Positions 13,887 to 57,321 of a stretch of 64,000 nt of DNA are shown here, one piece after another. Below the pieces are notes generated by a model. That model made no database searches. It saw only the letters and a list, made by a program, of their open reading frames with translations, and was not told the DNA's origin. The translations under genes were made by a program, and so were the position numbers. This DNA comes from Pyropia yezoensis (taxonomy: Eukaryota > Rhodophyta > Bangiophyceae > Bangiales > Bangiaceae): contig CM020620.1 of the NCBI GenBank assembly GCA_009829735.1, positions 27,064,951 to 27,128,950 on the forward strand. Direction: 5' to 3'. Every line of letters starts with the position of its first letter. Positions within the stretch are counted from its first letter, which is position 1.

Positions 13887-14531
13887 TGTGGCGTTCTGAG
13901 CCCCTGGGACCGTTGGAACCCGGGAGACTGACTTGGGACCCGGCTAGCAGCGTTACGTGGAACCACGCGCTGGCCGAGGATCCCTGCATCGGTGGCCCGG
14001 GGCAGTGGCGACACGCCCGGTGCCCTGATTGGTCACCCGGAGCGGTGGACTTGCCGGGCTGGGGCGTACTGACCTTCGGTTTATTTGTTTGATTTTTCGC
14101 ATTTGTTTTCCTTGCGTGATTTCGTGTCTTTCCCCTTTTTTCTTACTGGGTTTTTTTCGGGGATTGACATTTGTGTGTGGGGGGATTTCGCTTGCTTTTT
14201 GTGTGTTGTCCCGGTGAGCGGCCGGTGCCTTGCTGGCACTTGGCCCGCTGGGGGCGCCCTCTGGGGGCCTCGCTCAGGGCCCCTGGAGGGGCCAGGGGGG
14301 GAGGTTCTTGAGGGGTGCTCCGGGGTTCTCCCCGGGGCCATCTTGTAAAATCAACAGTACTTTGGGTTCCTTCTCCCTCGGGCTTTTGTCCTGTTTGCGT
14401 TTGCTTCGTATCGTGGCGGGCGAGTGGATCAGCAAGGGCTCTTACCTGTTCCTTCTTGGGCTTCGGACTGTGGTCTCTGTGTGTGTGGTTGTGGTTTTTG
14501 GGTCCGGGAATCTGGGTCCCATTGCGCTACA
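13887..14531 (+). repeat. 5' LTR of element C
   Basis: 645 bases starting TGTGGCG and ending GCGCTACA. It matches 56678-57321 with few differences, including a T-rich block (14085-14165 against 56870-56955). Confidence 0.9.
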
Positions 14532-14535
14532 TTTA

Positions 14536-14553
14536 TGGTGGAGCAGCAGGGGA
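14536..14553 (+). promoter_or_regulatory. primer-binding site of element C
   Basis: TGGTGGAGCAGCAGGGGA starts four bases after the LTR and begins with TGG, the complement of a tRNA CCA end. The same 18 bases occur in families B and D, so all use one tRNA, which I cannot identify by eye. Confidence 0.8.
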
Positions 14554-14672
14554 GAGCTTTACTCTTCTCCCGTATCGGGACAGCCCTCTTCTTTCTCTGT
14601 GGCGTTTGGTTCCTTGGTTCCCGCTTCTGGTAACGAGATCGTTTGGTTCAGGTCGAGTGCCGGACGGCCAAC

Positions 14673-16347
14673 ATGACGGACCCTGTCCCTTCGGGCGGTC
14701 GGGGCCGTGGTGCGCCGTCGGACGTTTCGATGGTTACTCCCGCTGGCCGTGGCCGTGGCGGTCTCTCGGGTCCGTCGAACCGTGGCAGTGGCGGATCGAC
14801 AGGGATTCCTCGTCCGGGGACAGCGCCCCCGGGGTGGGATCCGGCCTACTACGGGTCAGGATTTACGTGGGGACGCGGGTTCCGAGTCAGGGACCCGAGT
14901 TCCACCTTCGGCTACTGTTACTGGGTCCCCGGATATTGTGTCCACACTGGAAACGTTTCGAGATGAGATTTTGGCTACTGTTTCCCAGGCCCTGAGCCAG
15001 AATCCTGCTGGCCAGGGTGGGCCCCGTGATACCAGTCGTTCCGATCGTTCTCGTTCCCACCATCACCGGCGTCGTCATCATTCGAGTGGCTCCTCTTCCT
15101 CTTCTTCCTCTGGTACCACATTTTCATCCGTTTTCGACGAGGAGGACCTGGAACCCATTCGGAACCCACGAACCGAGCCCCAGGTAATCAAGTGTTCCGA
15201 CGATCGTTTTGCTCGGGTCCTGGACTATCGTATGTACCGCCTACGGAACAAGAAATCGACCTATGGAACGCGAGAAGCACGCAAGATGGGACGGGTTGCT
15301 CGTAAAATGAAACACTCTTTTGCTGGGTACCCTAGTTTCTCTGGGAAAGAGGCCCTCAAGGTGTTCACGTGGCTCCGCAAACTGGTTAAGGCATGTAACG
15401 ATACTGGGGTTTCCGAGGGCATGGCCCTGTACGCGATCCCTCATTTCCTGTCTGGGGACACGGAACTGAGGTACACTCGGGCCCTCCCGGACTCCTCAAG
15501 CGCGTCAGGTGGCGCTTCGATCACTAGTTACCCCGAGGCTGTTAACTGGTTCCTTGAAGCGTACGCTGCACCCCATGCGTTGGCACTGGCGCAGGATAAA
15601 TTCAGTCGGGCCGCCAAGGAACCAGATGAGAGTATCGAGGTCTTTGCGGTACGCTTACGGGGTCTGACGGAACTATGCGGAAACATCCACACCGAAGGTA
15701 CTATGAAACAGCAGCTGCTTCAAGGGCTCCCTGAGTACCTACGTACGGACGCATTTGTCAACAATATCCCTGAACGTACGTACCAGCAGCTGGTAACGTT
15801 TACTGCAGGCAAGAACAAGGCGGCTACCGAGGTTATCAAGATGGCCCGAGGGTCCTCTGTGACCAAGGCTGGCCCCTCAGGAACCGTCTGCAGACCCACT
15901 GAACCGAGGCCCAATCGTTCGTTGGACTCATCCCCGTTGATGGCTGTTATTCCTATGGGCCCTTCTACGATCCTTAAGGGCCCCCTCGAGAAGGAAACTG
16001 AGAAGAACGGGTCGGGTCAAGTGTTTGGGTTCAAGGGACCCACGCCCCAGTTCCTGGGAGTACGTACCATGGACAGTCGACGCCCGTACCGTTGTTACCT
16101 TTGTTGGGAACCGGGTCACATGGCCCATCAATGTTTTATGTTGTCTGAGGTCCAACGGAAAGCGGTTATCCAGGCCCGGGACTCGTTCCTTGCGGCCACT
16201 CGTGGACGGAGTCAGAGTACCGATGTAAAGCCGAACGCGGACCGCCAGTTCCATCATCAGATCCGGGTTGCTATGGTTCAGGCCCTTTGTGAAGGGATAA
16301 ACCTCTCGGATGACGAGGCGGACCAAGAGTACCTAGTGAACGTGTAG
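14673..16347 (+). pseudogene. gag: gag of element C, 3' end cut off by insertion of B3
   Basis: The likely start is the ATG at 14673 (MTDPVPSGGRGRGAPSD), a Gly/Arg/Pro-rich leader. That frame shifts near 14870 into the main frame, open to the stop at 16347. The main part has a capsid-like helical region (KMGRVARKMKHSFAGYPSFS through LQGLPEYLRT) and a CCHC zinc knuckle CYLCWEPGHMAHQC near 16095-16135, so the product packages RNA in virus-like particles. The final TAG comes from the B3 LTR. The original coding continues after B3 at 40311 and ends at a TAA at 40346-40348. Confidence 0.85.
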
Positions 16348-16708: not shown

Positions 16709-16721
16709 TATCCCCCCCTTA
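16709..16721 (-). promoter_or_regulatory. polypurine tract of B1
   Basis: On the minus strand this reads TAAGGGGGGGATA directly before the 3' LTR, the usual place for plus-strand DNA priming. Confidence 0.7.
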
Positions 16722-17296: not shown

Positions 17297-19673
17297 ATGT
17301 CGGACCCCCAGGTACCCGGGGGCGAGGACGACCTCCTGCTTGAGGAGGAGGAAGAGGTGATGGTGGACGACGTTCTCGTCTCTGCCACCGCTGCCGAGTG
17401 CTTCTTGGCGAGCTCGTTCGAAGACGAGGGCGACCGGGTAACCGTCCGCGTGGCCCCGGGAGGTGCGCCGGGCGGTTTGTCGTCCGTGTGCAGCGGCACG
17501 ACGGCTCCGTCGGGTGGCGGGCAACCGCGTGTAGCGGCTGCCTCTACCCCTACTCCTCCGGCGGCCCGGATGGCTTCTGTCGCCGGTGCCGGCGCGGCTC
17601 TACCTCAAGATGCCGTCGCCGGCGTGTCGGATGGTCGTGGCGGCACCCCGGCCAGTCCGGCGGGTCAAGACGGCGCGGGTGCCCGCTCGGTTGGTGTATC
17701 CGCGTCGGCGGGTAACGGGTCTACCCCCGCCGCCCCCGTGGTGCCCACGTCGGGTCCGGGTGGCGGCGATGCTCTGCCCGCGGTGCCGCGGACGCGTGAT
17801 GGTCAAGAGGTATCTACCCCGATGGCAGTGGACTCCGGGAGTTACTCCGGGCGGGCGCCCGCCCTTCTTCTTCCTCCTCGGCCCCGTGCACCTCCGGCAC
17901 CGGCCCATCTGCCGGTGGGGCATCCCCCGGCGCCCCCGATTCTTCCTGGTCCTGCCCGGGTTGCCCCGTTGGGTGGCGGCGTCGCCGTGGCGGCGGGTCA
18001 ACCCGCCATGTCGATGTCCGATTTGGTGGCTCGGGTTCGAGGCATGACTGTGCACGAGTCGATGGAGTCCGCTGGGCGGATGCGGGTGGACTTCCACCGG
18101 CCGCGTCTCCCTGGAGAGACCTCCCGGCGCGTCAAGGTGGACCGGAGTTGGGAGCGGGAGTTGGTGCGGCTGGTCAACCAGCCGAACGCGGTGCGAGTGG
18201 AACACCATTGGATCCTGAGTCAGCCGGACGACCGGCATGCGCAGCTCTGGCGCATTCGGGTGGGGCGGGGTGAGGTCTACCTCGACTCCGCCTTCGGGGT
18301 ATGCGACTTGATTGCCCCCGCGTTGCCGCGGGAGGTTGACTACCCGGCTAGTGCTCGGGGGATTGCGGCGGCGGCGGAGCCGGTTGCGTTTGGGGAGACG
18401 GTGGGTGATACCGGCCGGTATCCCGGGTTCGAGTACTTCCCGGGGGTATCCCCGTACCTGACGTTGACGGCTCCGTACCCGCCTATGGCGGGGTTGAAGT
18501 CGGCGTCGAGCTGGCGACGTAACCAGGGTGTCATGGCAGATGGCAGATGCGTTCCGCATCGATATAACGTGTGCGTTGCAGACCGGTAACGGTCGCGCGC
18601 TGGTGTACACTGGCGTGCGCCCGCCTCTGTGGCAGGAGGGGTGGGAACCCTCCCCTGCTTTCCGGTTTGACACCGGCTCCTGTCTCCGATACTTCGGGAG
18701 TGTGTTGGCCTCCCGGCCGGTCCACCCGTTGCAGGGTACCTTCACCCTTGAGGTTACCCTCGGGCAGGCGTCCTCCTTCTTGCTGTCCGTCCGCCGGCAG
18801 GGGCGCCTGTTTCATCTTCCGACGGGTGTCCGTCGGCACATCGCGCAGTTGGGCGTGGACCTGATAGCCGCCAAGACCGGGTTGGCCCGAGAGCTCGAGG
18901 CCCTGCTGGCTGTTCACGATGCCGTGAACTGGGCTGGGGTGTTGGTCCTTCCCCCGTACCGGGATCCGCAGGCTGGGGCTTCCCCCTTGCCTCGTCACTC
19001 GTTGCGTATCCGGCGTACTCAGCCGGGTGAGCCTAGTTGCCATGGGTGGGCGTCCACCGAGGCTGTTGCTGACTTGGGTATTCCCATGGTTATCCATGAC
19101 CCTCTTCAGGTCCTTGCCCCGTGGTTCGGTAACCCGATACCGGCGGCGGTTGGCCGTCGTTCCCGAGAGTGGGGCTCTGCGGGTGGGGAGCGTGAGGTGT
19201 CCCGTCGTCGGGCGGAGTCCCGCCGGGGTTACGGTGGAGCCCCTTCGGTGGGGTCCTACCGGGCCTCATATCAGGCGCCACCGGCTCCGGTGGTGGCCGT
19301 GTCGGCTCCTCTGGCTCCTCTGGCTGCGCCAGTGTCCGCTCCCGCCCCTGTCATACAAGACGGGAGCCCCCGTCTCTGGTATGGGGGCGTTGACGCCCTT
19401 GTTGCCCGCGCAATGCGGGCGGGTCTCTCTGTTAGCTGGGGGGATATCCCCCCAGGTGCTGCGCTGGTTGGGTCAGCGCGTTGCTTCGGTGGCGTGCTTG
19501 ACCGCCTCCAGAAAGCTCTGGAGGATGTGGAGGCTGGCCGCAGCACCCTCGTCCAGCTATGCACCGAGGTAACTCGGGTGATTGACCGTCGTGAGATTGC
19601 CGACCGGTGGAGCACGGAGGTATACGCGCTTACGCGTGAGGGGCCTCCCTCGGGCAGTGGGTCTACCCACTGA
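17297..19673 (+). pseudogene. antisense ORF of element B1, split in two by a 7-base duplication
   Basis: Lies on the strand opposite to gag-pol, between the polypurine tract and the end of integrase. Part 1 starts at the ATG at 17297 (MSDPQVPGGEDD) with an acidic N-terminus, then a long Ala/Gly/Pro/Ser-rich linker, then a compact region (RELVRLVNQPNAVRVEHHWI onward), and stops at 18589. Part 2 runs in another frame from about 18540 to the stop at 19673. It holds the core shared with family D: CLRYFGSVLASR, RRQGRLFHLPTG, LLAVHDAVNW. The frames meet at a tandem GGCAGAT repeat (18535-18548); one copy fewer would give one frame of 789 codons. No signal peptide, membrane segment or known catalytic motif is visible. 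Not an obvious envelope protein. Function unknown. Confidence 0.7.
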
Positions 19674-21451: not shown

Positions 21452-21464
21452 TATCCCCCCCTTA
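21452..21464 (-). promoter_or_regulatory. polypurine tract of B2
   Basis: Reads TAAGGGGGGGATA on the minus strand immediately before the 3' LTR, as in B1. Confidence 0.7.
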
Positions 21465-22035: not shown

Positions 22036-24412
22036 ATGTCGGACCCCCAGGTACCCGGGCGCGACGACGACCTCCTGCCTGAGGAGGGGGAAGAGGTGAT
22101 GGTGGACGACGTTCCCGTCTCCGCCACCGCCGCCGAGTGCTTCCTAGCGAGCTCGTCCGAGGACGAGGACGACCGGGTGACCGTTCGTGTGGCCCCGGAA
22201 GACGCGCCGGGCGGGTTGTCGTCCGTGTGTAGCGGTACGACGGCTCCGTCGGGCGGCGGACAACCGCGTGCAGCGATGGGCTCCACCGCTACTCCTCCGG
22301 CGGCCCGGATGGCTTCTGTCGCCGGTGCCGGCGTGGCTCTACCTCAAGACGGTGTCGCCGGCGTGGCGGATGGTGGTGGCGGCCGCCCGGCCAGTCCGGC
22401 GGGTCAAGACGGCGCGGGTGCCCGCCCGGTTGGTGTGTCCGCTGCGGCGGGTAGCGGGTCTACCCGAGCTGCCCCCGTGGTACCCACGTCGGGTCCGGGT
22501 GGCGGCGATGCTCTGCCCGCGGTGCCGCGCGCGTCTGGTGGTCCAGGTGGTTCTACACCGATGGCAGTGGACTCCGGGAGTTACTCCGGGCGGGCGCCCG
22601 CCCTTCTTCTTCCTCCTCGGCCCCGTGCACCTCCGGCACCGGTCCATATGCCGGTGGGGCATCCCCCGGCGCCCCCGATTCTTCCTGGTCCTGCCCGGGT
22701 TGCCCCGTTGGGTGGCGGCGTCGCCGTGGCGGCGGGTCAACCCGCCATGTCGATGTTCGACTTGGTGGCTCGGGTTCGAGGCCTGACTGTGCAAGAGTCA
22801 ATGGAGTCCGATGGGCGGATGCGGGTGGACTTCCACCTGCCCCATCCCCGTGGAGAGTCCTCCCGGCGCGTCAAGGTGGACCCGAGTTCGGAGCGGGAGT
22901 TGGTGCGGCTGGTCAACCAGCCGAACGCGGTGCGAGTGGAACACCATTGGATCCTGAGTCAGCCGGACGACCGGCATGCGCAGCTCTGGCGCACTCGGGT
23001 GGGACGGGGTGAGGTCTACCTCGACTCCGCCTTCGGGGTATGCGACTTGATTGCCCCCGCGTTGCCGCGGGAGGTTGACTACCCGGCTAGTGCTCGGGGG
23101 ATTGCGGCGGCGGCGGAGCCGGTTGCGATTGGGGAGACGTTGGGCAGTACCGGTCGGTATCCCGAATTTGATTACTACCCGGGGGTATCCCCGTATCTGT
23201 CGTTGACGGCCCCCTACCCGCTTATGGCGGGGTTGAAGTCGGCGTCGAGCTGGCGACGTAACCATGGTGTCATGGCAGATGGCAGATGCGTTCCGCACCG
23301 ATATAACGTGTGCGTTGCAGACCGGTAACGGTCGCGCGCAGGTGTACACTGGCGTGCGCCCGCCTCTGTGGCAGGAGGGGTGGGAACCCGCCCCTGCTTT
23401 CCGGTTTGACACCGGCTCCTGTCTCCGATACTTCGGGAGTGTGTTGGCCTCCCGGCCGGTCCACCCGTTGCAGGGTACCTTCACCCTTGAGGTTACCCTC
23501 GGGCAGGCGTCCTCCTTCTTGCTGTCCGTCCGCCGGCAGGGGCGCCTGTTTCATCTTCCGACGGGTGTCCGTCGGCACATCGCGCAGTTGGGCGTGGACC
23601 TGATAGCCGCCAAGACCGGGTTGGCCCGAGAGCTCGAGGCCCTGCTGGCTGTTCACGATGCCGTGAACTGGGCTGGGGTGTTGGTCCTTCCCCCGTACCG
23701 GGATCCGCAGGCTGGGGCTTCCCCCTTGCCTCGTCACTCGTTGCGTATCCGGCGTACTCAGCCGGGTGAGCCTAGTTGCCATGGGTGGGCGTCCACCGAG
23801 GCTGTTGCTGACTTGGGTATTCCCATGGTTATCCATGACCCTCTTCAGGTCCTTGCCCCGTGGTTCGGTAACCCGATACCGGCGGCGGTTGGCCGTCGTT
23901 CCCGAGAGTGGGGCTCTGCGGGTGGGGAGCGTGAGGTGTCCCGTCGTCGGGCGGAGTCCCGCCGGGGTTACGGTGGAGCCCCTTCGGTGGGGTCCTACCG
24001 GGCCTCATATCAGGCGCCACCGGCTCCGGTGGTGGCCGTGTCGGCTCCTCTGGCTCCTCTGGCTGCGCCAGTGTCCGCTCCCGCCCCTGTCATACAAGAC
24101 GGGAGCCCCCGTCTCTGGTATGGGGGCGTTGACGCCCTTGTTGCCCGCGCAATGCGGGCGGGTCTCTCTGTTAGCTGGGGGGATATCCCCCCAGGTGCTG
24201 CGCTGGTTGGGTCAGCGCGTTGCTTCGGTGGCGTGCTTGACCGCCTCCAGAAAGCTCTGGAGGATGTGGAGGCTGGCCGCAGCACCCTCGTACAGCTATG
24301 CACCGAGGTAACTCGGGTGATTGACCGTCGTGAGATTGCCGACCGGTGGAGCACGGAGGTATACGCGCTTACGCGTGAGTGGCCTCCCTCGGGCAGTGGG
24401 CCTACCCACTGA
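22036..24412 (+). pseudogene. antisense ORF of element B2, split in two by a 7-base duplication
   Basis: Same length and layout as the B1 copy, with the ATG at 22036 (MSDPQVPGRDDD). The first frame stops at 23328 and the second runs from about 23280 to the stop at 24412. The Ala/Gly/Pro-rich linker differs from B1 by many substitutions, while the second part is nearly identical. The GGCAGAT repeat at 23274-23287 again separates the frames, so the split is older than the separation of B1 and B2, or the frames are joined in some regulated way. The shared core includes CLRYFGSV, GRLFHLPTG and VHDAVNW. It converges with integrase, leaving a 478-base gap. No family recognised. Confidence 0.7.
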
Positions 24413-24890: not shown

Positions 24891-27800
24891 TTACAGTAGG
24901 CGTCGTCGCCTCATGTAAGGCATGAGGAGTTGGCGGGGTATATTTGCCGCTCGTTCCCAGGTGGGTGAGTCGTATCCGACCCACATAACCTTGACGTACC
25001 AGGGTCCTGGTAGGTCCGGGTCGGTGTGTCCGACCACGCTCTCTACTTGGTATGGAGTCCCATCCGGTCCCACCGGGTCATCTGACCGGTGGGTTGTAAG
25101 AGCTTCATGTAGCAACCCAGCTGGTACCGGCTGAGGCTGTTCCGGCTTCGGAGCAGGTGTGACATCATTCACACTGATGCGTTGGATCTCCGTATCGGAG
25201 TGTAAGATAACAGAGTGGTCATCTCTGTGGAGAATCTGGTACGGTCCCTTGACCGGTTGCATGAGTTTGTTCCCCCGGAACTTCTGGTGTCTGATGTAGA
25301 CCCAGTCACCTGTCATCAGGGTAGCGTTGCGCACGCGTAGTCGGGCGTCGAAGTTCTTCTTGTATCGAAGTTGTGTTCTGTCAAGGGCACCCTTGAGCTC
25401 AGGAATCATCCACGATAGCTTGGCCAACCAAGCTAAGTGGATCCGTTCGGCCGGTCGGCCCTTCGGTATATCATACCGAGTGCACCTGCCGGGTGGCAGC
25501 GTCAGGTTACCGACGCCCATCGGCATGACCCACTCCAGTGGGGCGATGTTTGTGCTCCGATGTGGCCTGGCATTGTATGCCAGGGTGAGGACGGACAGAA
25601 GCCTTTCCCAAGTGTTTGTGTGCTCGGCCACGTAGCACTGTAGCATCTTGACGATGGTGCGGTTGAACCGCTCCACCTGCCCGTTGGTTTGCGGGTGGTA
25701 GTCGGTTGCCCGACGTGGTTCGATACCGAACATGCCTAGGACCTTAGTGCAGAATGCTGACGTAAGGTTTGCTCCGTTGTCGGAGAGGAGTTGCTTCATG
25801 ACTCCGTATGCGCTGATCCAGTGGTCAACCAATGCGTTCATGATGGTATATGCCGTATCATTCGGGATGGCTGCCGCTCGTGACAGCTTGGTGAATCAGT
25901 CTGACATGACTAGGATGTACCTGTTCCCTTCTTCCGTTACCGGAAGTGGCCCGAGTATGTCGATAGCGACCTGCTCGTTGGGCCCATCCGGTGGGAACAG
26001 TTTCATGGCAGACGCCTGCCTATGTAGACCATGCGGTTACGTGCACATGGGTGGCATCCCCTTACGTGGTCGATTACGTCGACGGCCATTGCTGGCCAGT
26101 AGAAGAACCTTCGCATTGCTGCGAACATACGTGAACCCCCCGGGTGTCCGGCTGTAGGGTTCTCGTGTTCTCGTTCGATGACGGCTTGCCGTAAGGACAC
26201 GGGAACCACGACTTGATGTCGTCCATCGGCGGGTGCCCGCCGGTATATGAGTCCGTCTTCATTCTCCGAGAAGATGCCGGCCGTGCCGGCCAGGAGGTTA
26301 GCGCGATGGCGTCTACAGTCGTCGTCATTGGCTTGTGCCTCGCGGAAGTCCGCGAGAGTCAGTGGGCATGCTCGGTGTGCCATGGTATGGTCAACCATAC
26401 CTTGGGTGGCGTTACCCACCATGCAGACCGGTACCACCGGGATGTCCTCGTTCACCGGGCGGGTATCCCCGCTCGGGGTGTCGAGTCGGGACAGCGCGTC
26501 TCCGAGGTGGTGGGTTGACCCAGCCTTATACACGGTGCGGTAGTCGTGCTCGGCCATCTTCAACCTTCATCGGGCTAGCCTCCCATGGCTGTCGGAATCC
26601 TTGTCACCAAGGTTGAGGAGCCATCGTAGGGGTTCGTGGTCGGACCTCACGATGAACCTGGAGCCCTCCAGGTATGGACGGAGCAGTTGCACTGCCCATA
26701 TAACCCCGAGGCACTCACGCTCGGTGGCACTATAGTTACGCTCAGCCGGGTTGAGTGTCCGGCTGAAGTACCCTACCGGACGTAGGTCCGGGATAACGCT
26801 ATCGGAACCGATCAACGTCTCTCCCTGTAACAGGGTGCATCCCACTTGTGTATCGCATGCATCGACATCGATGACGAAGGTACCCCGTCGGTGCGGTAAC
26901 GCAAGGACGGGTGGGGATAGTAGGGCTCGCTTCAGCGACTCGAATGCCTCCTCTTCGCTAGGCGAAGGGGGTTGGAGTACCTTGGGCAGGGTACTGCTCG
27001 TAAGAACCGTTAACGGTTTAGCTATCCGAGCGAAGTCCTTGACGAACCGTCGGTATACGTTGCACATTCCCAGGAAGCTCTTGAGCTGCGTCTGGGTGCT
27101 AAAGAACCGGGCATCCGGGAGTGCCCAGGTATTAGCTTCGAGTACCCCTAGTTTACCAGGGGTTATCTGGTGGCCCAGATACTCGACCGTCTGTTGGAAG
27201 AAGGCGGACTTCTTCAGACGCAGGGTTACCCCGGCGTTCCGCAAGAGGGTGAGTACCTCGTCAACATGTTGCACATGGTCATCCATGTTACGCGAGAAGA
27301 CGATGACGTCATCGAGGTACACTAGGCAGTTACGCCACTTCACCCCCGACAGTAAAATGTCGATAGCCCGCTGGAATGTAGCGGGGGCGTTGGACAATCC
27401 GAAGGGCATCCTTAGGAACTCGTACACTCCACTGTGACAGACGAATGCCGTCTTGGGGATATCCTCGTCCGCCACCGGGATCTGCCAGTATCCGGCATTG
27501 CAGTCGATGGTGGTAAACACCGTAGCTTCCCCCAGGGAGTCGATGCATTCATCCATCCTTGGTAAAGGGTATGAGTCCTTCTTGGTAACCAAGTTGAGGC
27601 GTCGATAATCGATGCAAAACCGAGGGGTTTGATCCTTCTTCGGTACGATAACGACTGGGGCACCACACTCCGACATCGAAGGTCGTATCACCTTCGCTTC
27701 GCTCATTCTCTTCACTTCTCCATCAACGATCTCTCGTTGCATAGGTCCCGCTAGGTGCGGTTGTGACCGCGCTGGTCGAGCACCTGGTACCAGGTCTATA

Positions 27801-46147: not shown

Positions 46148-46185
46148 TCACTTGGTACCCGGGACGGTTCAGGTACGGGGTAGAC

Positions 46186-46655
46186 TGTGGCAGTATTGAC
46201 CCCCAGGTAGGGGGGCAACACGTGCCATGCCAGGGGCGGCAGGCCACTAGCCTGATCCGTTCCTCCCCCTGCATTTGGGCCCATATTCCCTAAGTTTTGG
46301 GATAGTTAGCTTAGTAGTAAATTCAACTTGCATTTGAGGGTTTTCTGCATTTATCGTCTTGAATTTTCGTGTGGCCCGGTGGGCAGGTGCTGGGGTGGGA
46401 GATTCTGAGTGGCGAGATTCTGAGGGGACCCTGGGGGGATAAGGGGAGGGACAACGGGGCTTGGCCCTGCGTCCCCGTCCCGACCAAGAAACTGTTGGAC
46501 CACACACCATCCTCTTGTTTGTCCGTGGGGGGTTTGCCCCACAACAGGGACAGCGTGTGTGCGACTTGCACTTCTTCCGGTTCCCCCGACACGGGAGGCA
46601 GCCCTAGCACACCGCCCCAACTTGGGTGTCGTGTGTGCAAGTGGTTTTTGCCACA
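46186..46655 (+). repeat. 5' LTR of D
   Basis: 470 bases, TGTGGCA to TGCCACA. Confidence 0.9.
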
Positions 46656-46657
46656 TT

Positions 46658-46675
46658 TGGTGGAGCAGCAGGGGA
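46658..46675 (+). promoter_or_regulatory. primer-binding site of D
   Basis: TGGTGGAGCAGCAGGGGA, two bases after the LTR; identical to the sites of B and C. Confidence 0.8.
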
Positions 46676-46774
46676 CAGAGGTAAACTTTACCTCCGGGTG
46701 CACCCGGGTGTAGGGGGCCCTCTGTCTCAGAGGAACGGCGGACTTGGACCGTGTCATAGGGATCGTCAGCCAAC

Positions 46775-48722
46775 ATGGCCAGCTCGGACCCCCCGTCGTC
46801 CGGGGAGTACACGGGTGACGCACGTACTTCAGTGCCTTTGAATACTGGTGAGACACAGGTGGGTATACCTGGGGTCGCAGAGGGCCTGGGGGTCCCTCAA
46901 GCCAGCAGGACTGGAAGTGCGGGCGGGCAACAGGCCACCCCGACTCAGTCGGGAGTTCACTCGGGTGACACTTCTGATGTGGGTGGGCCGAAGTCTGGCC
47001 ACCGTGTGGTAAGCTCAACGGGAACGTCCCAAGGTGTGAGGACTGTCCCCGCGGGTTCCACTCGGGTTGGAGCCAACTATGGCTTGGAGCCGTCGCCAAC
47101 TATGCTTTCGGAGGACGGCGGACCTCCGTTGGTCGGCGATGGGCTCGCGCCCATGCCCCCCGTTTGAGACCCCTGAGGAACGTGGTCACCCCTCAGGTGG
47201 ACTCCCGGAGGCGTACCGAGACTCAACTGGAGTCGTCAATCCACTCCTCGCGGAAACTCTCCGTCGGGAGGCGACCAATGTGTTGCGGCAGACTTTGCCG
47301 GACCTGGTGGTCACGATGACGAGTACTATTCTGAATCAGATTGTGGCGAGTTTGCCACATGGCCTTAATGTCCAGACCGGATTTGGGCTTTCGAGCCCGC
47401 AGGTGCAGGGGGAATCCCTCCTCACGCCTATCTCGGGTCGCCCCGAACAGGGGGCGACACCTGTGACTCCCAACGAGGGAGCCACACCATACTGGGTGGG
47501 GCGTACGCCCTTTATGGGGGAGTTCCCCCCGGAAACGCCGGCGGCTACACCAAGCGCGCCGCGCCAGACCGTGGGCACTGAGGGTGAACTTGCCCCGGTG
47601 CCACAGCGGCTGTTCCCTCAACGTGAGGTGCCGCCCAAGATCCAGGTAGCCAACCCGGTCAACCAGAGGATCTCTGATTGTGAGACCTACGCCCTCCACA
47701 ACAAGTCGGTGGTGTATGGTTCTGTCCAGGCCCGAGCCATGGGTCGTGCCAAGAAGAATGCACTTCATTCTTTTGGGCACAAAGCGGAGTGGGATGGAAC
47801 TGCCCCCCTCCGTGTCTTTGAGTTTCTACGTCGTTTCACAAAAGCCTGTGACGACAATGCCATAAGTGAAGGCATGGCTTTCTACAGGCTACAGGAGTTT
47901 ACGAAGGGCGACCTGCGGACAGAACTTATGTCCGTCATGCCCAGCTCCTTAAGTGGAGGCGCTGGGGAGGTGACGTCCTATTTGGAGCTCGTGAACTGGT
48001 TACTGAGAGCCACGGTTGATGAAGCAGCGTTGGCTTCTCAAGTCGAGGAGTTTACGCAAGCCCACCAGGAAGAGGCCGAGGACGAGTTGTCCTCTGCGGA
48101 GCGAGTCCGTAAGCTCAACAATCTTTGTGGGTTTCTTCATCCACAAGCTGCGGTGAAGAGTCGGTTTGTGGAGGGACTCCATTGGTCAGTCCGGATGGAG
48201 TCCCGCGAGCATAACACTGCCCGGGCGACCCTGGCCGAGTTGGCAAGGTTCGCCTACCGCAGGGGTGAGGCCTATTGCAAGTTGCAGGAGGAACAACGCC
48301 AGGAGCGTCAGGCCGAGTTGGCCAAGGAACGCGAGGAGGCGCGCCGGACCAGAGAGTTGAGAGAGGCACGCCGAATCCGCAAGGAGAGAGTGGAAGCTGC
48401 CGTGGGAACTTCCCAGGGTACCTCTTCGTCTTCCCCAGTCGGGCAGACCCCTCCCGGAACAGACAATCGGTGTTGGAACTGCAACTCCGATGGACACTGG
48501 GCATATGATTGCCCCAAGTTGAGTAAACGCATCCAACAACTTGTTAGGAATGCGAGTAAGAAGTCGGCTACGAACGAAGTACGTTCACGCCGCGAGGGTG
48601 GGTCTCGACCGGTCGTCGCGGTCGCCACACCCTCGGCGGAGGAGGCGGACACGTCGTCCTCGGACTCGTCGTCTTCCTCCCCGCCCTCAGAATCGGACGC
48701 CAAGTCGGCGGGAAACGAATGA
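46775..48722 (+). pseudogene. gag: gag of D, frameshifted at a C6 run
   Basis: The ATG at 46775 (MASSDPPSSGEYTGDARTS) opens a Gly/Pro/Ser-rich leader. At a C6 run near 47157-47162 the frame must shift to continue into the main gag frame, open to the TGA at 48720-48722. The main part has a capsid-like region (KALHSFGHK-type start near 47750, CGFLHPQAAVKSRFVEGL), an Arg/Glu-rich helix (48290-48400), the zinc knuckle CWNCNSDGHWAYDC (48473-48512) and an acidic Ser tail. Ends next to the frameshift heptamer. Confidence 0.85.
48710..48716 (+). promoter_or_regulatory. -1 ribosomal frameshift heptamer, gag/pol of D
   Basis: GGGAAAC in phase G GGA AAC, then GAA and the gag stop TGA. Slipping back one base continues into the pol frame. 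The context GCGGGAAACGA(A/G)TGA is shared with family B. Confidence 0.75.
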
Positions 48723-51700
48723 CCGTTGGAGCTGGCCGTCCGAAGCTCACAACGGCAGCCTCGGCCAAGTGGGCCAAGAGGACGAACCAACCGTGCCGGA
48801 TACTGCGGCGACCTAAGGGAGTCCGCCCACCTCGGGTAGGACTCCCCAAGAACGTAAACCCACGTCGGGTCATCGCGGTGCTGACGGGTGAGAACTTCCA
48901 GGTGGCTGGACGGGTGCAACTTGCCCCCGGCCGCGCCTGTTGTGCCCGTATCGTACTTGATACCGAGTCAGGAGCCTCCTTGATACGCAAGTCGCTATTA
49001 CCAAAGGAGGTGAAGCTCCAACGCTGGAGGTCCAAAGCTGATCATATGATTAACATCAATGGTGGGGTACTTCCCATCGTTGGTGCCGTGACCCTACCAA
49101 CTAGGTTGGGGACCCATGAGGTCGACGTGACATATGGTGTAGTTAAGAATTTATCGGTACCCCTGCTTCTGGGTACCCCTTATGTTATCACACAAGTGCC
49201 TTTGATTTGTGGCCCTGAGTACTTGGTCAAGTTGATGAATGGGGAGACTATCCCCATCCTTGGTAAGGGAAAGTCTGTGGCTCCTGTGACAGTCTCACAG
49301 TCGAAGCCTGTTTGCTCTGTGAGGGAAGGGCTTACTGCTACCCTGCGTTTAGCCCGTAAAGTCACGTTGCCCCCCAACTCGGTGGCGCACGTTGACGTTG
49401 TAACTGATTATACTGGGAACGGGTTGGTGCACCCTTACCCCCGTCTTGCTCGCAAGCAGCAAGTGCACGATGCCCTTGGCACGATGGACTCCAAAGCCGG
49501 AGTCCCGTGGAGGATCCAGGTGATGAACCTGAGCTCGTCGCCCCAGTACTTCAAGTCGGGAGCCAAGTTCGGCTATATCGACCAACACGAGGGACCGGTA
49601 GTAGCGGTCACCCTCAACGCGGGCGCAAGTAGCGACCCGAAGTCCGGAAAGGAGAAGCATCAAGCCAGGTCGGCCGCCTCTCCTCGGCCCCATGTGAACA
49701 TGGAGGGTGTCCCCCCCAGGTTGAGGGTTCAAGTTGAACGCCTCTTGGACCAATATCACAAGTTGTGGGATGGTCAATTGGGACTCATGAGAGCTACCCA
49801 ACACCGGATCGAGTTGAAGCCCGGTGCACCCCCTATACGCCAACAACCGTATAGGGGAGGACCCCGTTCAAGGGCCGTCGTTAAAGAGCAAGTTGCTAGC
49901 ATGGAGGCCCTCGATGTGATCGAGGCCAGCAACGCCGAGTGGGCGAGTCCGGTGGTTATCGTCCCCAAAGTTGATGGGACCCCCCGGTTCTGTATCGACT
50001 ACCGTAAGCTCAACGAGAGCACGGTGAAGGACAGTTATCCCCTACCTAGGATGGACGACTGTCTGGACTCTCTGGGGGAGGCGAACGTGTTCTCTACCCT
50101 GGACTGTAACGCGGAGTACTGGCAAATTCCCATTGCCCCGGAAGACAGGCATAAAACTACCTTTACCTGTCACTGTGGTACCTACCAGTGCAAGCGTCTA
50201 CCGTTTGGCCTGTGTAACGCGCCGGCAACTTTCCAGCGCGCTATGGACATGATTCTGGCCGGAGTACGGTGGCAGATCTGTCTCGTGTACCTAGACGATA
50301 TCATTGTGTTCTCCCGAAGTCCGGAGGAGCTCATTGGCCATCTTGGCCAGGTGTTCAAGCTACTTGCTGACGCCGGTGTGTCACTGAAGGCGAGTAAGTG
50401 CCACCTCTTCACTCAAGAGGTGGAATACTTGGGACATGTTGTTCGTCCGGGGCGTCTCAGTTTCAACGAGAAAACTTGAGGGCCATCCGTAAGGCTCAGT
50501 ACCCCCGGACCCAGACCCAGATGAGGAGCTTCCTCGGGATGTGTAACGTGTACCGACGTTTCACCAAGGGCTTCGCCAATGTGGCGAAGCCGTTGAATGA
50601 GTTAGTGAGCTCAACGCTCCCGAAGAACCTGTCTCCCCCAAGTCGGGTGGAGCAGGAATCCTTTGAGACTCTTCGGGACCTTCTGCTGAAGCCCCCTATC
50701 CTGGCTATTCCCAGGTTGGGAGGCCACTACATCCTGGATGTGGACGCTAGCTACGACCAACTTGGTTGTGTGTTGCTTCAGCAGCAGCCGGACAAGGAGG
50801 ACTTGCCGGTGGGATACTTCAGCAAGGGGCTGAACTCGGCCGAGAAGAACTACGGAGTCACCTAGTTGGAAGGACTCGCAGTGGTATGGGCGGTGACGTC
50901 ACTTCGTCACTACCTGGAGGGTGCGAAGTTCCTCATCCGCTGTGACCACCGCGCGTTGCAGTTCATCTTTAAGACGGACTGTACGAACACTCGTCTCAAT
51001 CGGTGGAGGGTGCGACTGGCACCCTTCAGCTTTGATATTGAGTACCGACCTGGCAGGCAACATGCCCTTGCCGACGGCCTCTCTCGGGTACCTACCGAGG
51101 GGCTGGACACTAACCCAGTCGATGAGGACATCCCCATCGGGGGGGTAGTCACGCGCTCGGGTCAGGCGTTGAACCCCGAGGCGCCAGGGAACAAGAAGTA
51201 CTTGCCCCTGTCCCTGGACGAGGTGGTGAAGGCCCAGGCCGAGGATCTCTTCTGCAAGTCGCAGAGGGATACACTGGATACAGTGGCGGAGACGCGGTTC
51301 TTTCTGGTAGACGATGGCCTCCTCATGAGGAGGGGGGTATTCCAGGGGACCGAACAACTTGTCGTCCCCGCATCCCTCAAGGACAGTATCCTTGAGAGGG
51401 AGCATAACGCTCCCACAGGTGGACACCTGGGGTCTAGTAAACTGTACCAGACCCTGAGGACCAGGTACTACTGGCCGTCCATGGTGGTGGACATCTACAG
51501 TTGGGTGGCTGCCTGCACAAGTTGTGCGCAGAACCGTCTGATGGAACGGCGGCCTACTACGGCTATGCTATTGTTACCGGCCAAGGAACCCTTTGCCGCG
51601 TTGGCGATGGACATCCTTGGGCCACTGCCAGTGACCGAGGAGGGCAACCAGTACCTCCTGGTCATCTATGACCGCTTCACGAAACTTACGCGAGCGATCC

Positions 51701-52701
51701 CACTGGCAGAGATCACGGCCATGTCGGTCGTGTCGGCCTTCCTAGATCACTGGGTTGCCGCGTATGGCATCCCAGATAGTACACTATCGGACAATGGACC
51801 GCAATTTGCGTCTGTACTGTTTCAGGGAGTGCTGGATATGTTGGGGGTTAAGGCAAACTATGCCACCCCCTACCACCCACAAACTAATGGGCAGGTGGAG
51901 CGCTTCAACAAAACTATTGTTAGGCAGCTGCGCCACTATGTGGGTGAGCACGTGAAGACGTGGGACCAATATATTTCTATTCTTACTACTGCCTAAAATT
52001 CGCAGGCTCACTCATCTACCGGGGAAGTGCCCCTCGCTTTTGTGACCCCCCGTCGCGTGCGGTCTATTGCTGTGCGGCGGTCGCTCCCAACTAGGGAGGA
52101 TGGTGGCAGTACGCCTACTCCTACTGAGAGTAAGGCGGAGTTCGCTGCTAGGCTTGAACACCTCATCCCTAAAGTCAGGGCTGAGATGGACAAAGCACAA
52201 AAGCGCTACAAGCGTACCTTTGACAAAAAGGTGCGCAATGCTAAGCATGTCCCCGAGCAGGGTGACTGGGTGCTGGTTCACTCACACACCCCAACTGGGG
52301 GTAAGTTGGTATTCCAGACGAAGGGGCCGTACCAGGTCCTTCGTACTGATGGGCGGCGCTTCACCATCGAAAGTGACGATGGGGTCCGCACAGTGAACGG
52401 ACAGGACGTGGTCAAAGTTGCACCACCGCCTGCAGGCGACCCAGCTTGGGCGCGTGCTTTGGAAGCGTGGCGCCTCCTCTCACTGCCTGCGGCCAAACAG
52501 GGCCCGCAGGAGTACGTGTTCGATAAGTTCATCGACCACAGATGGGATGAGGACACTAACCGCCTCATGTTGAGGGTGCGTTGGTTTGGCTACATAGCCA
52601 AGGATGATACGTGGGAGTATGTGGAGGACCTTCCCGCTGAGAAGGTCCGGGCATACTGTGCCCGGAATGAGATAGACCCTAACAGCCCTCCCTCAACGTG
52701 A
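48710..52701 (+). pseudogene. pol: pol polyprotein of D (PR-RT-RNaseH-IN-chromodomain)
   Basis: The protease carries VLDTESGASLI, an unusual DTES in place of the common DTGA. Reverse transcriptase has FCIDYRKLNESTVKDSYPLP and LVYLDDIIVFS (about 50281-50313). One base is missing from an A-run near 50470-50475 (after LSFNEK), and RNase H then continues in the next frame with a TAG at 50863-50865. Integrase has the HHCC finger (HNAPTGGHLGS, CTSCAQNR), LAMDILGPLPVT, LSDNGPQFAS and NGQVERFNKTIV, and is interrupted by a TAA at 51994-51996. The tail resumes in frame and ends with a chromodomain (NRLMLRVRWFGYIAKDDTWE). Non-functional as read. Confidence 0.9.
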
Positions 52702-52812
52702 GGGATGGCCGAGTAACAGTGCCAAGAGAGTGCTTCAAGTCGAAGTGGTACGCAGAGTGGCTTTTAACTACAGCCCTAACCCTCACACTCTCGCAACAAA
52801 GGCAGCTGCCAA
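52702..52812. other. short spacer between convergent ORFs of D
   Basis: Only 111 bases separate the pol stop from the antisense ORF stop. No strong stem array is apparent, in contrast to family B. Confidence 0.6.
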
Positions 52813-54756
52813 CTAGGCATGCATGCTAGACTCTCCAACTCCACGGCCCTCGCCCTCACGTAGAGGTGAGCGGCGAGACCCACGGCGATAACGCTCCCCA
52901 CCCGTCGGAGGGGGCGGCGGCTCCAAGTCGGACCCGTCGCGCCCCTCACGGTCGCGCAAGTGGCGACGACCGCGGCTACCCTTCTCCTTGGTCTTGCGCG
53001 CAAGTTGGCGACGCAGACGCCGGACCGACTCCGACTCTGACGGAGTCGAGGACTCCGAGATGGAGTAAGACAACTCGTCTTCCGACACAGAGGGAGAGCG
53101 CCGCGAGTGTCGGCGACGACGGCGAGGAGGCGAGTATGCCCGGCTCGCACGACGTTTGCCACGCCCAAGTGGGGCTGGCTGGGGCATAATCGCCCCAATG
53201 CGAGCCAACTCGGCCGTCATAAACTCCGCCACCGACTCGCAACTCGCGGTCGCCACTGCAGTACGAACGCGCTCCTCAAGTTGAGGAGTCTCGGAAGCTT
53301 GAAGGGTTGCGGTCGACGCGGCCAACCAGGAAATGGTGCGCACCAACGTGGTGATCATCATCTCTGAGGTTAGAGGCGTGGGCGGTAATACTAACTTGGG
53401 GTATACCGTCAGGAGGGTGGCCCCCAAGTTGAGGGACACCGGGGTGGACGACTCAACGGCCACGCTAATCGGGATGTCCCCGTGCGGCTGGTAGGGGACA
53501 GGAGGAAGCGGAGGGGCACGCCGAGGTAGCGGGACCCGGGTGTAGCTGCGACCCCGACTTGGGGCCCTCGCAGTGGGTTGAGTCATATGGTCATCATATG
53601 AGGGCACGGCCATAACTATGGGCTTGTCCGGGGGTGGCGCAGTGTGGCGATCCACTCCCGGGGCATATGGGTAGTCCCCGATGCCCAACCTCTCGCGTAG
53701 GACCACACGGCCGTCGTGAAGTTCACGAGCGACCCACACGAACTGGCGAAGTGCGCCATCGTTCTTGGGCCCACGAGTGGGGCGGCGCAACTTGTGCTCA
53801 ATGCTCTCCCACTCGATAAACTTGTGAAGGCGGAGCATCTCCTCAAGTAGAGTGAGTTGTCCTGATGAGCACCCCTCAGCAACTAGCTGATGGGTGAGCT
53901 GTTCCAGACCTTGGATAAGCCGGAGGGGGAGATGCCAGAGCATCCCCCGCCGCTGAACACAAGACACCGAGGTCGACATGACCTCGAGGAGCCACTGGGT
54001 GGCCAACATGGCCCACACCAGGTGATCAGGGCCAGCCGTCAACATGACGGAGCCGAAGTGGTCAAGCAACCGTGGCAGCAACGCCGGGAACCCGTAGGGG
54101 ACCTCAACTTGAGGCCACCACTCGGGCTTCTTCGGATAGTATTGCTCCTTACTGGCAGCAGACTGCTGAGGGAACTCAAGTTGAGCCGAGGTCACCAAGT
54201 AGGGACCTCGCCGGAAGTCCTTCTCCATCCGCACATCAAAGTGATGAGTGTGCGGATCGGCCTCGTGAAGGTACGTGGGGCGAGTTGCCACAGCGTCCCA
54301 AGTAAAGGTCGGCAAGTCGCCGGGACCCGGGATAGTTCCCCCGCGGTCCACCATGGCCTTGGCACGCTGTACATCTTCGACCTCCTCGTCGTCCAGGAAG
54401 GCAAACTGGTCCGTCCTGAAGCCGGCTGGGAACCCGACCCTACGGGGATACTTCTCCCGTAGGCGGTCCCATACCCGACCCATCGCTGCGCCAAGTCGGC
54501 CACAGCGAAGAACAGTCAACCCCTCCTCATAGAGAGGCCAAGCGGGGTAAAACCACCGCCCCAAGGCCTCACGCGGGACAACTTGTCCCGCCTCCGGGGG
54601 AGATCCCGCAGTCAACCCAAAGCCGGGTGACGCGGGAGTCCCATCCCCCGGAGCGATCGCGGAGCCCCCGCCGGAAGTCCCTGCGGGCGCTGCACCGTAG
54701 GAGGTGTCCTCCATACGTTCGTCAAAAGAATCTGTCTCCACTCCCGGGGTAGCCAT
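52813..54756 (-). CDS. antisense ORF of element D, intact
   Basis: An unbroken frame of 647 codons opposite to gag-pol. I start at the ATG at 54756 (MATPGVETDSFDERMEDTS); the frame is open 57 codons further upstream, but that part is Pro/Ser-rich leader. Layout: a Gly/Ser/Pro N-terminus; an alpha/beta-looking middle (FDVRMEKDFRRGPYLVTSAQ, LLDHFGSVMLTAG, RRGMLWHLPLRL, MLRLHKFIEW) that aligns with the family B antisense protein; a Pro-rich linker; then an Arg/Ser-rich basic tail (YSPPRRRRRHSRRSPS, RRLRRQLARKTKEKGSRGRR) that could bind nucleic acid or act as a nuclear signal. There is no signal peptide or membrane segment, so it is unlikely to be an envelope protein. That it is the only long open frame left in D, while gag and pol are broken, is notable. 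Function unknown. Confidence 0.75.
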   Translation of the reverse strand: MATPGVETDSFDERMEDTSYGAAPAGTSGGGSAIAPGDGTPASPGFGLTAGSPPEAGQVVPREALGRWFYPAWPLYEEGLTVLRCGRLGAAMGRVWDRLREKYPRRVGFPAGFRTDQFAFLDDEEVEDVQRAKAMVDRGGTIPGPGDLPTFTWDAVATRPTYLHEADPHTHHFDVRMEKDFRRGPYLVTSAQLEFPQQSAASKEQYYPKKPEWWPQVEVPYGFPALLPRLLDHFGSVMLTAGPDHLVWAMLATQWLLEVMSTSVSCVQRRGMLWHLPLRLIQGLEQLTHQLVAEGCSSGQLTLLEEMLRLHKFIEWESIEHKLRRPTRGPKNDGALRQFVWVARELHDGRVVLRERLGIGDYPYAPGVDRHTAPPPDKPIVMAVPSYDDHMTQPTARAPSRGRSYTRVPLPRRAPPLPPVPYQPHGDIPISVAVESSTPVSLNLGATLLTVYPKLVLPPTPLTSEMMITTLVRTISWLAASTATLQASETPQLEERVRTAVATASCESVAEFMTAELARIGAIMPQPAPLGRGKRRASRAYSPPRRRRRHSRRSPSVSEDELSYSISESSTPSESESVRRLRRQLARKTKEKGSRGRRHLRDREGRDGSDLEPPPPPTGGERYRRGSRRSPLREGEGRGVGESSMHA

Positions 54757-55083
54757 GGCTCTCCCCAAGTTGGGGAGAGACGCCCTGGCTACAGCGGCCC
54801 GAGACCCGCCTCGAGTTGAGGGGCACTCGGATCGTGGGTAGACGGGTGGCCTCCCCAGCGAGGGGCGGCCCCGTGGAAGGTGAAGGGGAGGTGGTGGTGA
54901 TGGTGAAGTGTGAACCGAGAAGAGCAAGCTGCCGAGTGGGCAAGCTTGAGGAGAGGGGCGGTCAACGTGACCGCCTCCACATACGCGTTACGTACTCAAG
55001 GGGGGGGACAGCAAGTCGCGCCCCCAACGCCGAGACGTGCGTTTACGCACCCCCTCACAGGGCCGACCGGGTCGGTCGGAACT

Positions 55084-55096
55084 GAGGAGAGGGGAG
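55084..55096 (+). promoter_or_regulatory. polypurine tract of D
   Basis: GAGGAGAGGGGAG directly before the 3' LTR. Confidence 0.75.
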
Positions 55097-55565
55097 AGTG
55101 GCAGTATTGACCCCCAGGTAGGGGGGCAACACGTGCCATGCAAGGGGCGGCAGGCCACTAGCCAGATCCGTTTCTCCCCCTGCATTTGGGTCCATAGTCC
55201 CTAAGCTTGGGATAGTTAGCTTAGTAGTAAATCCAACTTGGATTTGAGGGTTTTCTGCATTTATCGTCTTGAATTTTCGTGTGGCCCGGTGGGCAGGTGC
55301 TAAGGTGGGAGATTCTGAGTGGCGAGATTCTGAGGGGACCCTGGGGGGATAAGGGGAGGGACAGCGGGGCTTGGCCCTGCGTCTCCGTCCCGACCAAGAA
55401 ACTGTTGGACCACACACCATCCTCTTGTTTGTCCGTGGGGGGTTTGCCCCACAACAGGGACAGCGTGTGTGCGACTTGCACTTCTTCTGGTTCCCCCGAC
55501 ACGGGAGGCAGCCCTTGTACACCGCCCCAACTTGGGTGTCGTGTGTGCAAGTGGTTTTTGCCACA
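55097..55565 (+). repeat. 3' LTR of D
   Basis: 469 bases; the first base is A instead of T (AGTGGCA), and it ends TGCCACA. Confidence 0.9.
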
Positions 55566-55574
55566 GAGACCCGA

Positions 55575-56105
55575 TCAGGTACAGCCTGAAGGTGCGGCAG
55601 GTAGGGTCCCTTGGAAGAGTTCCATGCGGACCGCCTTGAACCGTTCGACGTACCCGACCTCGTCCTCGTGCCGCACAATCGTGATCGATAGGGAACGGTC
55701 CGCAAGGACAGGGATCCGAGCTTCCGGCATCACTGCCATATGCTTACGAAACGAGTTACCCGGACAGCTCCCGTCCACGGCTCGAAGGATCCCATGGGCC
55801 CGGGTACCAGTAACTCGACCTCGCGCCTCCTCCCGACGCCACGCCGTAACCGTCTCGGGTCCGAAGTCCTCAGGAACCACGCCAACTATGGCCGCGTACG
55901 ACTGGCCCGCCCCGGTTCCCTCTTGGTTCGCAGGTAGTTCGTCTGGCCCCGTAACAGGGCCACCTTGAACAGCACGTACGCCTTGCCCACCCGGTACGAC
56001 TGGCCCAGGAGCGGGGCCACCTTGAACAGCTCGGTCACCTCGAAGGTCGGGGACCACAGGGCCCGCGCCAGCAGGCGAACCCGCCGCGGCGCTGCCGGTA
56101 TCCAT
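55575..56105 (-). pseudogene. antisense ORF of C, 5' part
   Basis: The likely ATG is at 56105 (MDTGSAAAGSPAGAGPVVP). A Gly/Ala/Pro leader contains a repeated RAVQGGP(A/V) unit, followed by QSYAAIVGVVPEDFGPETV and FKAVRMELFQG. The last part resembles VRMEKDFRRGPYL of the D protein, better so if a frameshift is allowed. A TGA ends the frame at 55575, nine bases before D begins. The remainder lies at 44960-46185. Upstream codons to 56234 are Pro/Ser-rich and probably not translated. Confidence 0.5.
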
Positions 56106-56677
56106 GGGGGCCCAGGTGGAGGGGAACGTGGTGGTACGTGTGGTGGGGTACGTGGGCGGCGGAGACGGAGAAGGGGAACGAGGAAGCGGGGGAGAACGAG
56201 GTGAACACGGGAAGCGCCGCGGGGACGATGGCACAATGGGACCCGGGTGCTGGGGACGAGGGAACCGGTGAGGGTGCTCTTATCCACTGGCCCCCTGCGT
56301 TCCAAATGGTACCAGGGCTGCGCTCACGTTTCGCTGGCCCCCGCCTGTGCCCCTACACCGCGTCACCCCCCCCTAGCGTGCGGCGCCACATGGGGAGGGC
56401 GAAGGGGAGGAGGAATGCAGGTGGGCGGCCGGCGCGGGCTGCGCCACACCCCCTTTGCTTCCCCTGCGCGTGGCCCACACCTCTCCTTTACCCGCCCCTG
56501 GCCAGTCTGAACGGGTTCCCCCTGGCACGAGACACTTGTCGGGGGGCCCCTGTTGACAGACGCTGGCCCCACATCCCGTCCGTTGTGCCCCTGTTGTAAC
56601 CCTGTCAGACGTTCCCCAGTTCCTTTCCTCGGCTTCCTTGTTGGCCGGCGGGACGCTCGGCCCTAGTGAGGAGGCCA
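56106..56677. other. upstream region of the C antisense ORF and polypurine tract of C
   Basis: No gene. It should hold the promoter for the antisense ORF. The weak purine tract GTGAGGAGG near 56666-56674 lies before the 3' LTR. Confidence 0.4.
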
Positions 56678-57321
56678 TGTGGCTTTCTGAGCCCCTGGAA
56701 CCGTTGGAACCCGGGAGACTGACTTGGGACCCGGCTGGCAGCGTTACGTGGAACCACGCGCTGGCCGAGGATCCCTGCATCGGTGGCCCGGGGCAGTGGC
56801 GACACGCCCGGTGCCCTGATTGGTCACCCGGAGCGGTGGACTTCCCGGGCTGGGGCATACTGACCTTGGTTTATTTGTTTGATTTTTCGCATTTGTTTTC
56901 CTTGCGTGATTTCGTGTCTTTCCCCTTTTTCCCACTGGGTTTTTTTTCGGGGATTGACATTTGTGTGTGGGGGGATTTCGCTTGCTTTTTGTGTGTTGTC
57001 CCGGTGAGCGGCCGGTGCCTTGCTGGCACTTGGCCCGCTGGGGGCGCCCTCTGGGGGCCTCGCTCAGGGCCCCTGGAGGGGCCAGGGGGGGAGGTTCTTG
57101 AGGGGTGCTCCGGGGTTCTCCCCGGGGCCATCTTGTAAAATCATCAGTACTTTGGGCTCCTTCTCCCTCGGGCTTTTGTCCTGTTTGCCTTTGCTTCGTA
57201 TCGTGGCGGGCGAGTGGATCAGCAAGGGCTCTTACCTGTTCCTTCTTGGGCTTCGGACTGTGGTCTCTGTGTGTGTGGTTGTGGTTTCTGGGTCCGGGAA
57301 TCTGGGTCCCATTACGCTACA
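56678..57321 (+). repeat. 3' LTR of element C
   Basis: 644 bases, TGTGGC to ACGCTACA, followed by CCCCG. It lacks the nested insertions seen inside the element. Confidence 0.9.

Follow-up and report, generated by a model that had tools for sequence, protein, structure and literature searches.

What does a long open reading frame (ORF) do when it lies on the strand opposite to pol, between the end of pol and the 3' long terminal repeat (LTR), and is kept by several retrotransposon families at once? The question is raised by a 64,000-nucleotide stretch of the genome of the red alga Pyropia yezoensis (GenBank assembly GCA_009829735.1, contig CM020620.1, positions 27,064,951 to 27,128,950; hereafter the window), in which Ty3/gypsy elements of three families, referred to here as B, C, and D, are nested within one another and each carry such an antisense ORF. 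We found that the antisense frame is a coding gene under selection, a statement that we hold to be almost certain and that is established for D and B by selection and for C by homology. The three genes very probably go back to a single ancestral gene, judging from the similarity of their predicted proteins. What the protein does is weighed below; a role in trans appears to us the likeliest.

Antisense ORFs converge with pol in three element families

An original prediction, made from the letters of the window alone, had placed long antisense ORFs tail-to-tail with pol and ahead of the 3' LTR in B, C, and D. This layout stands (Table 1), with two amendments to the ORFs that were named. All are present, yet each of the two B copies, described as one ORF, is made of two overlapping ORFs in different frames, and the two C ORFs are parts of one ORF that element D has split. 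The antisense stop of B copy 2 lies 478 nt from the pol stop. A reverse-strand ORF of at least 250 codons, lying after pol and before the 3' LTR, occurs in all three families: it measures 647 aa in D, at least 825 codons at the open B loci, and 529-585 aa in the relatives of C (P0009, P0010, and P0012).

The genome searched for further copies comprised 107.5 Mb. Among the matches listed, 66 of 68 D matches are free of in-frame stops. Of the 30 B loci, 20 have a single frame that stays open for at least 825 codons, and the C-terminal part of the C protein (P0007) has at least 108 genome matches at 34-100% identity. The 58 listed C matches that cover at least 330 residues (identities 36-100%) include 34 without a stop. 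The longest stop-free stretch runs to 724 codons in D and, at locus L064, to 825 in B; neither was reached in any of 500 dinucleotide shuffles, for which the mean longest stretch was 200 (D) and 219 (B L064). The tested stretches have a GC content of 63-67%, and many long frames occur across the window. By itself, the N-terminal C piece (234 codons) is unremarkable, as 60 of 500 shuffles matched it, so the case for C rests on homology.

The C-terminus of pol converges with the antisense ORF at 30 of 30 D loci and 30 of 30 B loci. These loci were picked by the presence of the antisense ORF, and copies without it therefore fall outside the count. The count for C started from the integrase instead: an antisense ORF match lies within 4 kb of 38 of the 73 C-type integrases and within 12 kb of 41, all of them convergent (among the matches listed). 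The outcome was the same with 90 of the 108 antisense matches and with all 108 plus ten added places.

The antisense proteins have a common origin

Profile comparison with hhalign linked D to B (2.3e-5) and D to C (1.4e-5), against 0.2-0.62 for gag controls (n = 3), and single blastp comparisons gave 1e-7 (D with B) and 5e-8 (D with C). A C profile made from relatives outside the window, run against the 603 window ORFs, matched only the C pieces (P0006, E = 2.1e-56; P0007, E = 4.9e-134) and the D antisense ORF (E = 1.9e-13); one C piece was also matched in a second frame (45720-46289). When D was searched by blastp against the 603 ORFs together with 603 reversed decoys, the hits besides itself were C (E = 2.6e-5) and both B antisense ORFs (3.3e-5 and, for copy 2, 3.8e-5). 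A combined C and D profile found both B ORFs at about 4e-5, and its best match outside the antisense ORFs was 0.15.

Protein identity across families and species is about 18-35%, and the families differ in it about as much as they do in gag (gag identity 29-36% between C and D, 25-27% between B and D). The reverse transcriptases (RTs) of B, C, and D are mutually 62-70% identical and share 38-45% identity with another gypsy family of the genome (loci L001-L008). The original prediction spoke of three diverged families each keeping an antisense ORF. The ORFs have indeed been kept, but their proteins are homologous, so the gene was probably kept by descent within one clade and not retained three separate times.

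Purifying selection acts on the antisense frame

Selection (dN/dS, here omega) was measured for D and B. Variants were classed as synonymous or nonsynonymous and set against the outcome expected if the same base changes fell at random, with CpG sites treated separately; identical alignment rows were counted once, and locus L035 (for B also L039 and L040) was left out of the segment analysis. The 29 distinct D rows contain 365 variants, 163 of which are shared. The shared variants comprise 31 nonsynonymous and 132 synonymous changes versus 111.1 and 47.4 expected, are distributed over the three codon positions as 20/14/129, and correspond to an omega of 0.10 (0.02-0.20 over five segments). No nonsense change is found among them (4.5 expected), and all variants together include one (11.4 expected).

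For B, shared variants give an omega of 0.47 over the whole frame, with 0.70 in codons 1-235, 0.26 in codons 236-430, and 0.28 in codons 431-789. Some loci in the main B sets are broken or have unrelated DNA upstream, and the N-terminal value is noisy as a result; the 20 open loci alone gave 0.59, 0.25, and 0.25 for the same three segments. On shared variants, four of the five other frames exceeded 1; the fifth, the mirror frame, has its wobble positions in common with the antisense frame and gave a weaker signal (0.19 in D, 0.53 in B). As a control, the D pol C-terminus, which had not been used to choose loci, gave 0.21 for shared variants and 0.52 for singletons; selection on the antisense gene is as strong as on this part of pol. 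Variation in the D LTR and leader was set aside, as these alignments are full of gaps. The prediction had taken the antisense ORFs to be functional and had named dN/dS as the check, and for D and B this check supports them as coding genes: the antisense frame evolves under purifying selection in D and in B, most clearly outside the B N-terminus, and the other frames lie mostly above 1.

A family of proteins without recognized domains

The antisense proteins are roughly 530-790 aa long. Their core, some 200 residues, is conserved, whereas their ends vary and are in part of low complexity. The pattern QxEFP...P.W..VEVP[FY]G marks the core in D and in most relatives of C. The relatives are P0008, P0009, P0010, P0012 (84 member sequences), P0013, P0014, P0011 (EukProt), and P0015 (three database searches); the last is a hypothetical protein of Pyropia vietnamensis that is 34% identical over 83% of P0009. 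No Pfam family was detected at E <= 1 in P0005, P0009, P0010, or the B protein from L064, and no NCBIfam match at E <= 0.1 in four proteins; the A4 profile matched nothing in PDB at E <= 1. With Pfam at E <= 0.1, P0002 had one match, DUF6214, which was dropped as sub-threshold (16.7 vs 26.6 bits). Six proteins lack a transmembrane segment, with a top 19-residue hydropathy of 0.98-1.53; an envelope-like ORF was rejected on this ground and on the antisense orientation. A duplicated gag was rejected on the control values given above, obtained with the D profile against B and D gag and with the C profile against B gag. No relative was confirmed in viral contigs. Within the parts of the open-access literature consulted, no paper on antisense ORFs of red-algal gypsy elements was found, and the protein family appears undescribed there.

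We also looked at the DNA upstream of the antisense genes. The prediction had put the antisense promoter beside the polypurine tract or within the 3' LTR, which might then work in both directions. The one core-promoter-like sequence that turned up, TATAAG or CATAAG about 113 nt ahead of the B antisense start codon, would better fit a private promoter and is a weak lead: the exact TATAAG occurs in 10 of 30 B loci, and a motif of this type was not seen in D or C. No promoter motif stands out as common to the families, as judged from shared 9-mers (D and C share three, 3.0 expected; C and B2 share one, 3.56 expected). D and B2 share six versus 1.88 expected, mostly C-rich.

A short form of element C lacks a large part of the gene

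Full C copies with paired LTRs measure 10,076-10,086 bp (n = 5). Two shorter copies measure 9,010 and 9,011 bp and a related third copy 8,929 bp; the LTRs of the short form are 97-98% identical to the LTR of C in the window. The short form has a common breakpoint near antisense codon 71: among the 41 leader DNA matches listed, 11 span query positions 314 or 318 to 1100, and two further partial matches begin at this breakpoint. A census of the first 29 of the 73 integrase matches, all near C, identified 13 full copies, 10 short copies, one other with the same spacing, and five without a leader match. Measured from integrase residue 480, the breakpoint lies 1,104-1,110 nt away in short copies versus about 2,177 nt in most full copies, the latter being the sum of 1,851-1,862 nt to the start of the match (10 of 13 copies) and 317. 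A remnant of the C-terminal part of the ORF may persist within the short-form interval. A stop-free pol frame of more than 1,400 codons is present in three of the 10 short near-C copies and in three full copies.

The short form lacks more than 1 kb and has nevertheless multiplied, which speaks against an essential role in cis, as do the C-type integrases that have no antisense match nearby (35 of the 73 listed). C thus seems able to spread without the antisense gene in cis.

What the antisense gene may do

On balance, we favor the reading in which these elements carry an ancestral accessory gene whose protein acts in trans. Under this reading, a clade of red-algal Ty3/gypsy elements would carry the gene after pol and before the 3' LTR, in antisense orientation and converging on pol, and the protein would be made from a separate antisense transcript. 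It would act in trans within the cell, on the RNA of the element, its particle, or its integration, and if so, elements without the gene could use the protein of intact relatives. More specifically, the protein may be a trans-acting accessory regulator such as has been proposed for Grande gene23 or Retand ORF4, a reading that has, by analogy, about an even chance. The many copies of the short C form, with near-identical LTRs and an open pol in part of them, point indirectly to trans action. The short form would have shed much of the gene in a single event before multiplying with an intact pol. Tentatively, full-length C, and perhaps D and B, could supply a shared helper protein that the 9.0-kb form lives on or escapes. 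If this is true, the two forms would be a natural helper and cheater pair built on an antisense accessory gene that encodes a protein family without known domains.

Several observations weigh against the favored reading. B and C are only weakly similar when compared directly (0.06 with blastp, 0.0018 with hhalign), and their homology rests on D as the link. At default filters, the B and D profiles alone miss each other and the B profile finds only itself. One reversed decoy is hit by the D profile at 7e-7, low-complexity sequence being the probable cause. Among the matches listed, the 4 kb around 35 of the 73 C-type integrases contain no antisense ORF match, and 24 of the 58 near-complete C matches contain at least one stop. 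The 17 C places with a stop-free pol frame of at least 1400 codons divide into eight with an antisense match, eight without, and one with a match at 6.7 kb. Singleton variants also have an omega below 1 (0.49 in D, 0.85 in B), and part of the selection signal may come from the choice of loci by protein similarity. The pol C-terminus control behaves similarly, and this choice does not by itself explain the signal. Finally, the structure model has a mean pLDDT (predicted local distance difference test) of 34.9 and is unusable, so that it supports no biochemical role.

Two other explanations are unlikely, though they deserve weight. One is that the protein limits its own element, as in copy-number control through interference with the particle, so that copies that lose it gain; an antisense transcript could add silencing by double-stranded RNA (dsRNA). 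The multiplication of a C form that lost a large part of the gene would agree with this, as would the convergent overlap, from which dsRNA could arise, a possibility considered in PMC7264820. Against it, the omega of D is no higher than that of its pol C-terminus, which would be hard to maintain unless the product also helps, and the full form still accounts for 13 of the 29 near-C places.

The other, to which we give a similarly low probability, is a structural or assembly protein (a second capsid, a chaperone, or an envelope-like protein) in place of a regulator. The gag-like rate of evolution and a size of roughly 500-800 aa would suit such a protein; the lack of profile similarity to gag, of a transmembrane segment, and of PDB and Pfam matches argues against it.

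Capture of a host gene that was then retained in one lineage is improbable. Additional ORFs are known to originate in this way (PMC7264820), but the proteins have no Pfam match and the eight relatives are unnamed or bear a gene-model label or the word 'hypothetical'; no dedicated search for a host copy was made. It is more improbable still that the antisense RNA alone matters and the frame is incidental: antisense non-coding RNAs are known from other retrotransposons (PMC7264820), but the purifying selection on amino acids, the missing nonsense variants, and the protein homology across families and species refute this as the sole explanation. Chance frames, which GC-rich DNA full of long frames and the unremarkable N-terminal C piece might suggest, we regard as refuted by the D and B shuffles, by selection, and by homology.

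Nested architecture of the window

The elements follow the protease-RT-RNase H-integrase order and have LTRs and a primer-binding site, as expected for Ty3/gypsy elements (Metaviridae); the protease is a weak match, seen in B and C only. The primer-binding core TGGTGGAGCAGCAGGGGA is common to B, C, and D (14531-14570, 46655-46700, and the B LTR ends). Element C is flanked at both sides by CCCCG, its LTR has at least 40 genome matches at 96-100% identity, and its pol matches RVT_1 (9e-30), rve (7.1e-15), and Integrase_H2C2 (7e-15) in Pfam. Element D, with LTRs that are 96.6% identical, inserted within the antisense ORF of C and cut that ORF into two; its flanks, TAGAC and GAGAC, are identical at 4 of 5 positions. 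The prediction had called all three families chromoviruses. Judged by the chromodomain, this holds only for D, which exceeds the Pfam cut-off; B stays below it, and no chromodomain was detected in the tested C ORF at E <= 0.1 (Pfam).

Table 1. Coordinates of the nested elements and their antisense ORFs in the window.
Feature	Position	Strand	Remarks
Element C, whole	13887-57321	+	B array and element D both nested inside
Element C 5' LTR	13887-14531	+	97.5% identity to the 3' copy; begins TGTGGC
B elements, array of partly deleted units	16343-40305	-	Five common LTR copies of about 363 nt; sits in C
B antisense ORF copy 1, broken, 430 + 377 aa (P0001, P0002)	17297-19673	+	Overlapping ORFs 17297-18589 and 18540-19673
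B antisense ORF copy 2, broken, 430 + 382 aa (P0003, P0004)	22036-24412	+	Overlapping ORFs 22036-23328 and 23264-24412
B weak chromodomain	24891-25841	-	15.6 bits, under the Pfam cut-off
B RT and RNase H	26567-29056	-	Pfam
B gag	29065-31176	-	Assigned from place
Element C pol (RT, RNase H, integrase), two ORFs	40543-44694	+	Pfam matches
C antisense ORF, C-terminal part (P0007)	44960-46147	-	Stop 265 nt from pol stop
Element D	46186-55565	+	LTRs 46186-46655 and about 55098-55565
Element D pol C-terminus with chromodomain	52186-52701	+	Pfam Chromo 27.0 bits, cut-off 25.1
D antisense ORF (P0005), 647 aa	52813-54756	-	Stop 111 nt from pol stop; start about 342 nt from 3' LTR
C antisense ORF, N-terminal part (P0006)	55575-56105	-	Severed by D insertion
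Stretch retained in the C short form (leader and about 71 antisense codons)	55892-56674	-	Edge is the common breakpoint
Element C 3' LTR	56678-57321	+	Upstream of the antisense ORF on that ORF's strand

Other repeats surround the nest. Inverted repeats at 12725-13359 versus 58335-58732 and 63344-63581 are 79-90% complementary and lie 45-50 kb apart on both sides of it, and overlapping, diverged direct repeats cluster beside the C 3' LTR (57401-58083). Seven in-register repeat copies with 108-bp spacing occur at 61434-62381 within long minus-strand frames, and repeats with 30-33 bp spacing, together with diverged longer units, occupy 1308-2311 inside a 720-aa minus-strand ORF (482-2644). The P. 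yezoensis genome paper reports 48% repeats, with LTR retrotransposons as the main part (PMC7423979).

Comparison with known systems

The antisense layout itself is already known from plants and fungi. Elements of the Retand group (Tat lineage) likewise carry an antisense ORF after pol and ahead of the 3' LTR, present lineage-wide in 97% of clusters (PMC11963269). Retand elements are non-chromoviruses of flowering plants (PMC11963269), whereas the present elements are red-algal, and the Transposase_28 domain (PF04195) of the Retand antisense ORF has no counterpart among the four proteins searched against Pfam. Maize Grande gene23 and the rice RIRE2 ORF (aORF-3R) occupy the same place and strand and are retained in most copies of their families, and an accessory role has been proposed for them (PMC7264820). 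For Grande, an antisense transcript, a promoter of its own, and a nuclear protein have been reported; any counterparts in nori are putative. The fungal element Boty of Botrytis, likened here by description, has an antisense ORF in the same interval and so provides a case outside plants (PMC7264820).

HBZ of human T-lymphotropic virus 1 (HTLV-1) is a basic leucine zipper (bZIP) protein. Together with APH-2 of HTLV-2, it offers an analogy only, as an antisense gene at the 3' end of a retroelement (PMC7264820, PMC11963269); the nori proteins contain no bZIP or other Pfam domain, and their host element is not a retrovirus.

Antisense extra ORFs have long been described with their function unknown, and the extra-ORF proteins of plants are reported to be highly heterogeneous, with 314 groups in Ty3/gypsy (PMC6317226). 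Here, B, C, and D, all from one red-algal clade, share a homologous protein family that also extends to a second Pyropia species. The long and short forms of C co-exist with near-identical LTRs, which makes the purpose of an antisense gene testable by comparing natural copies.

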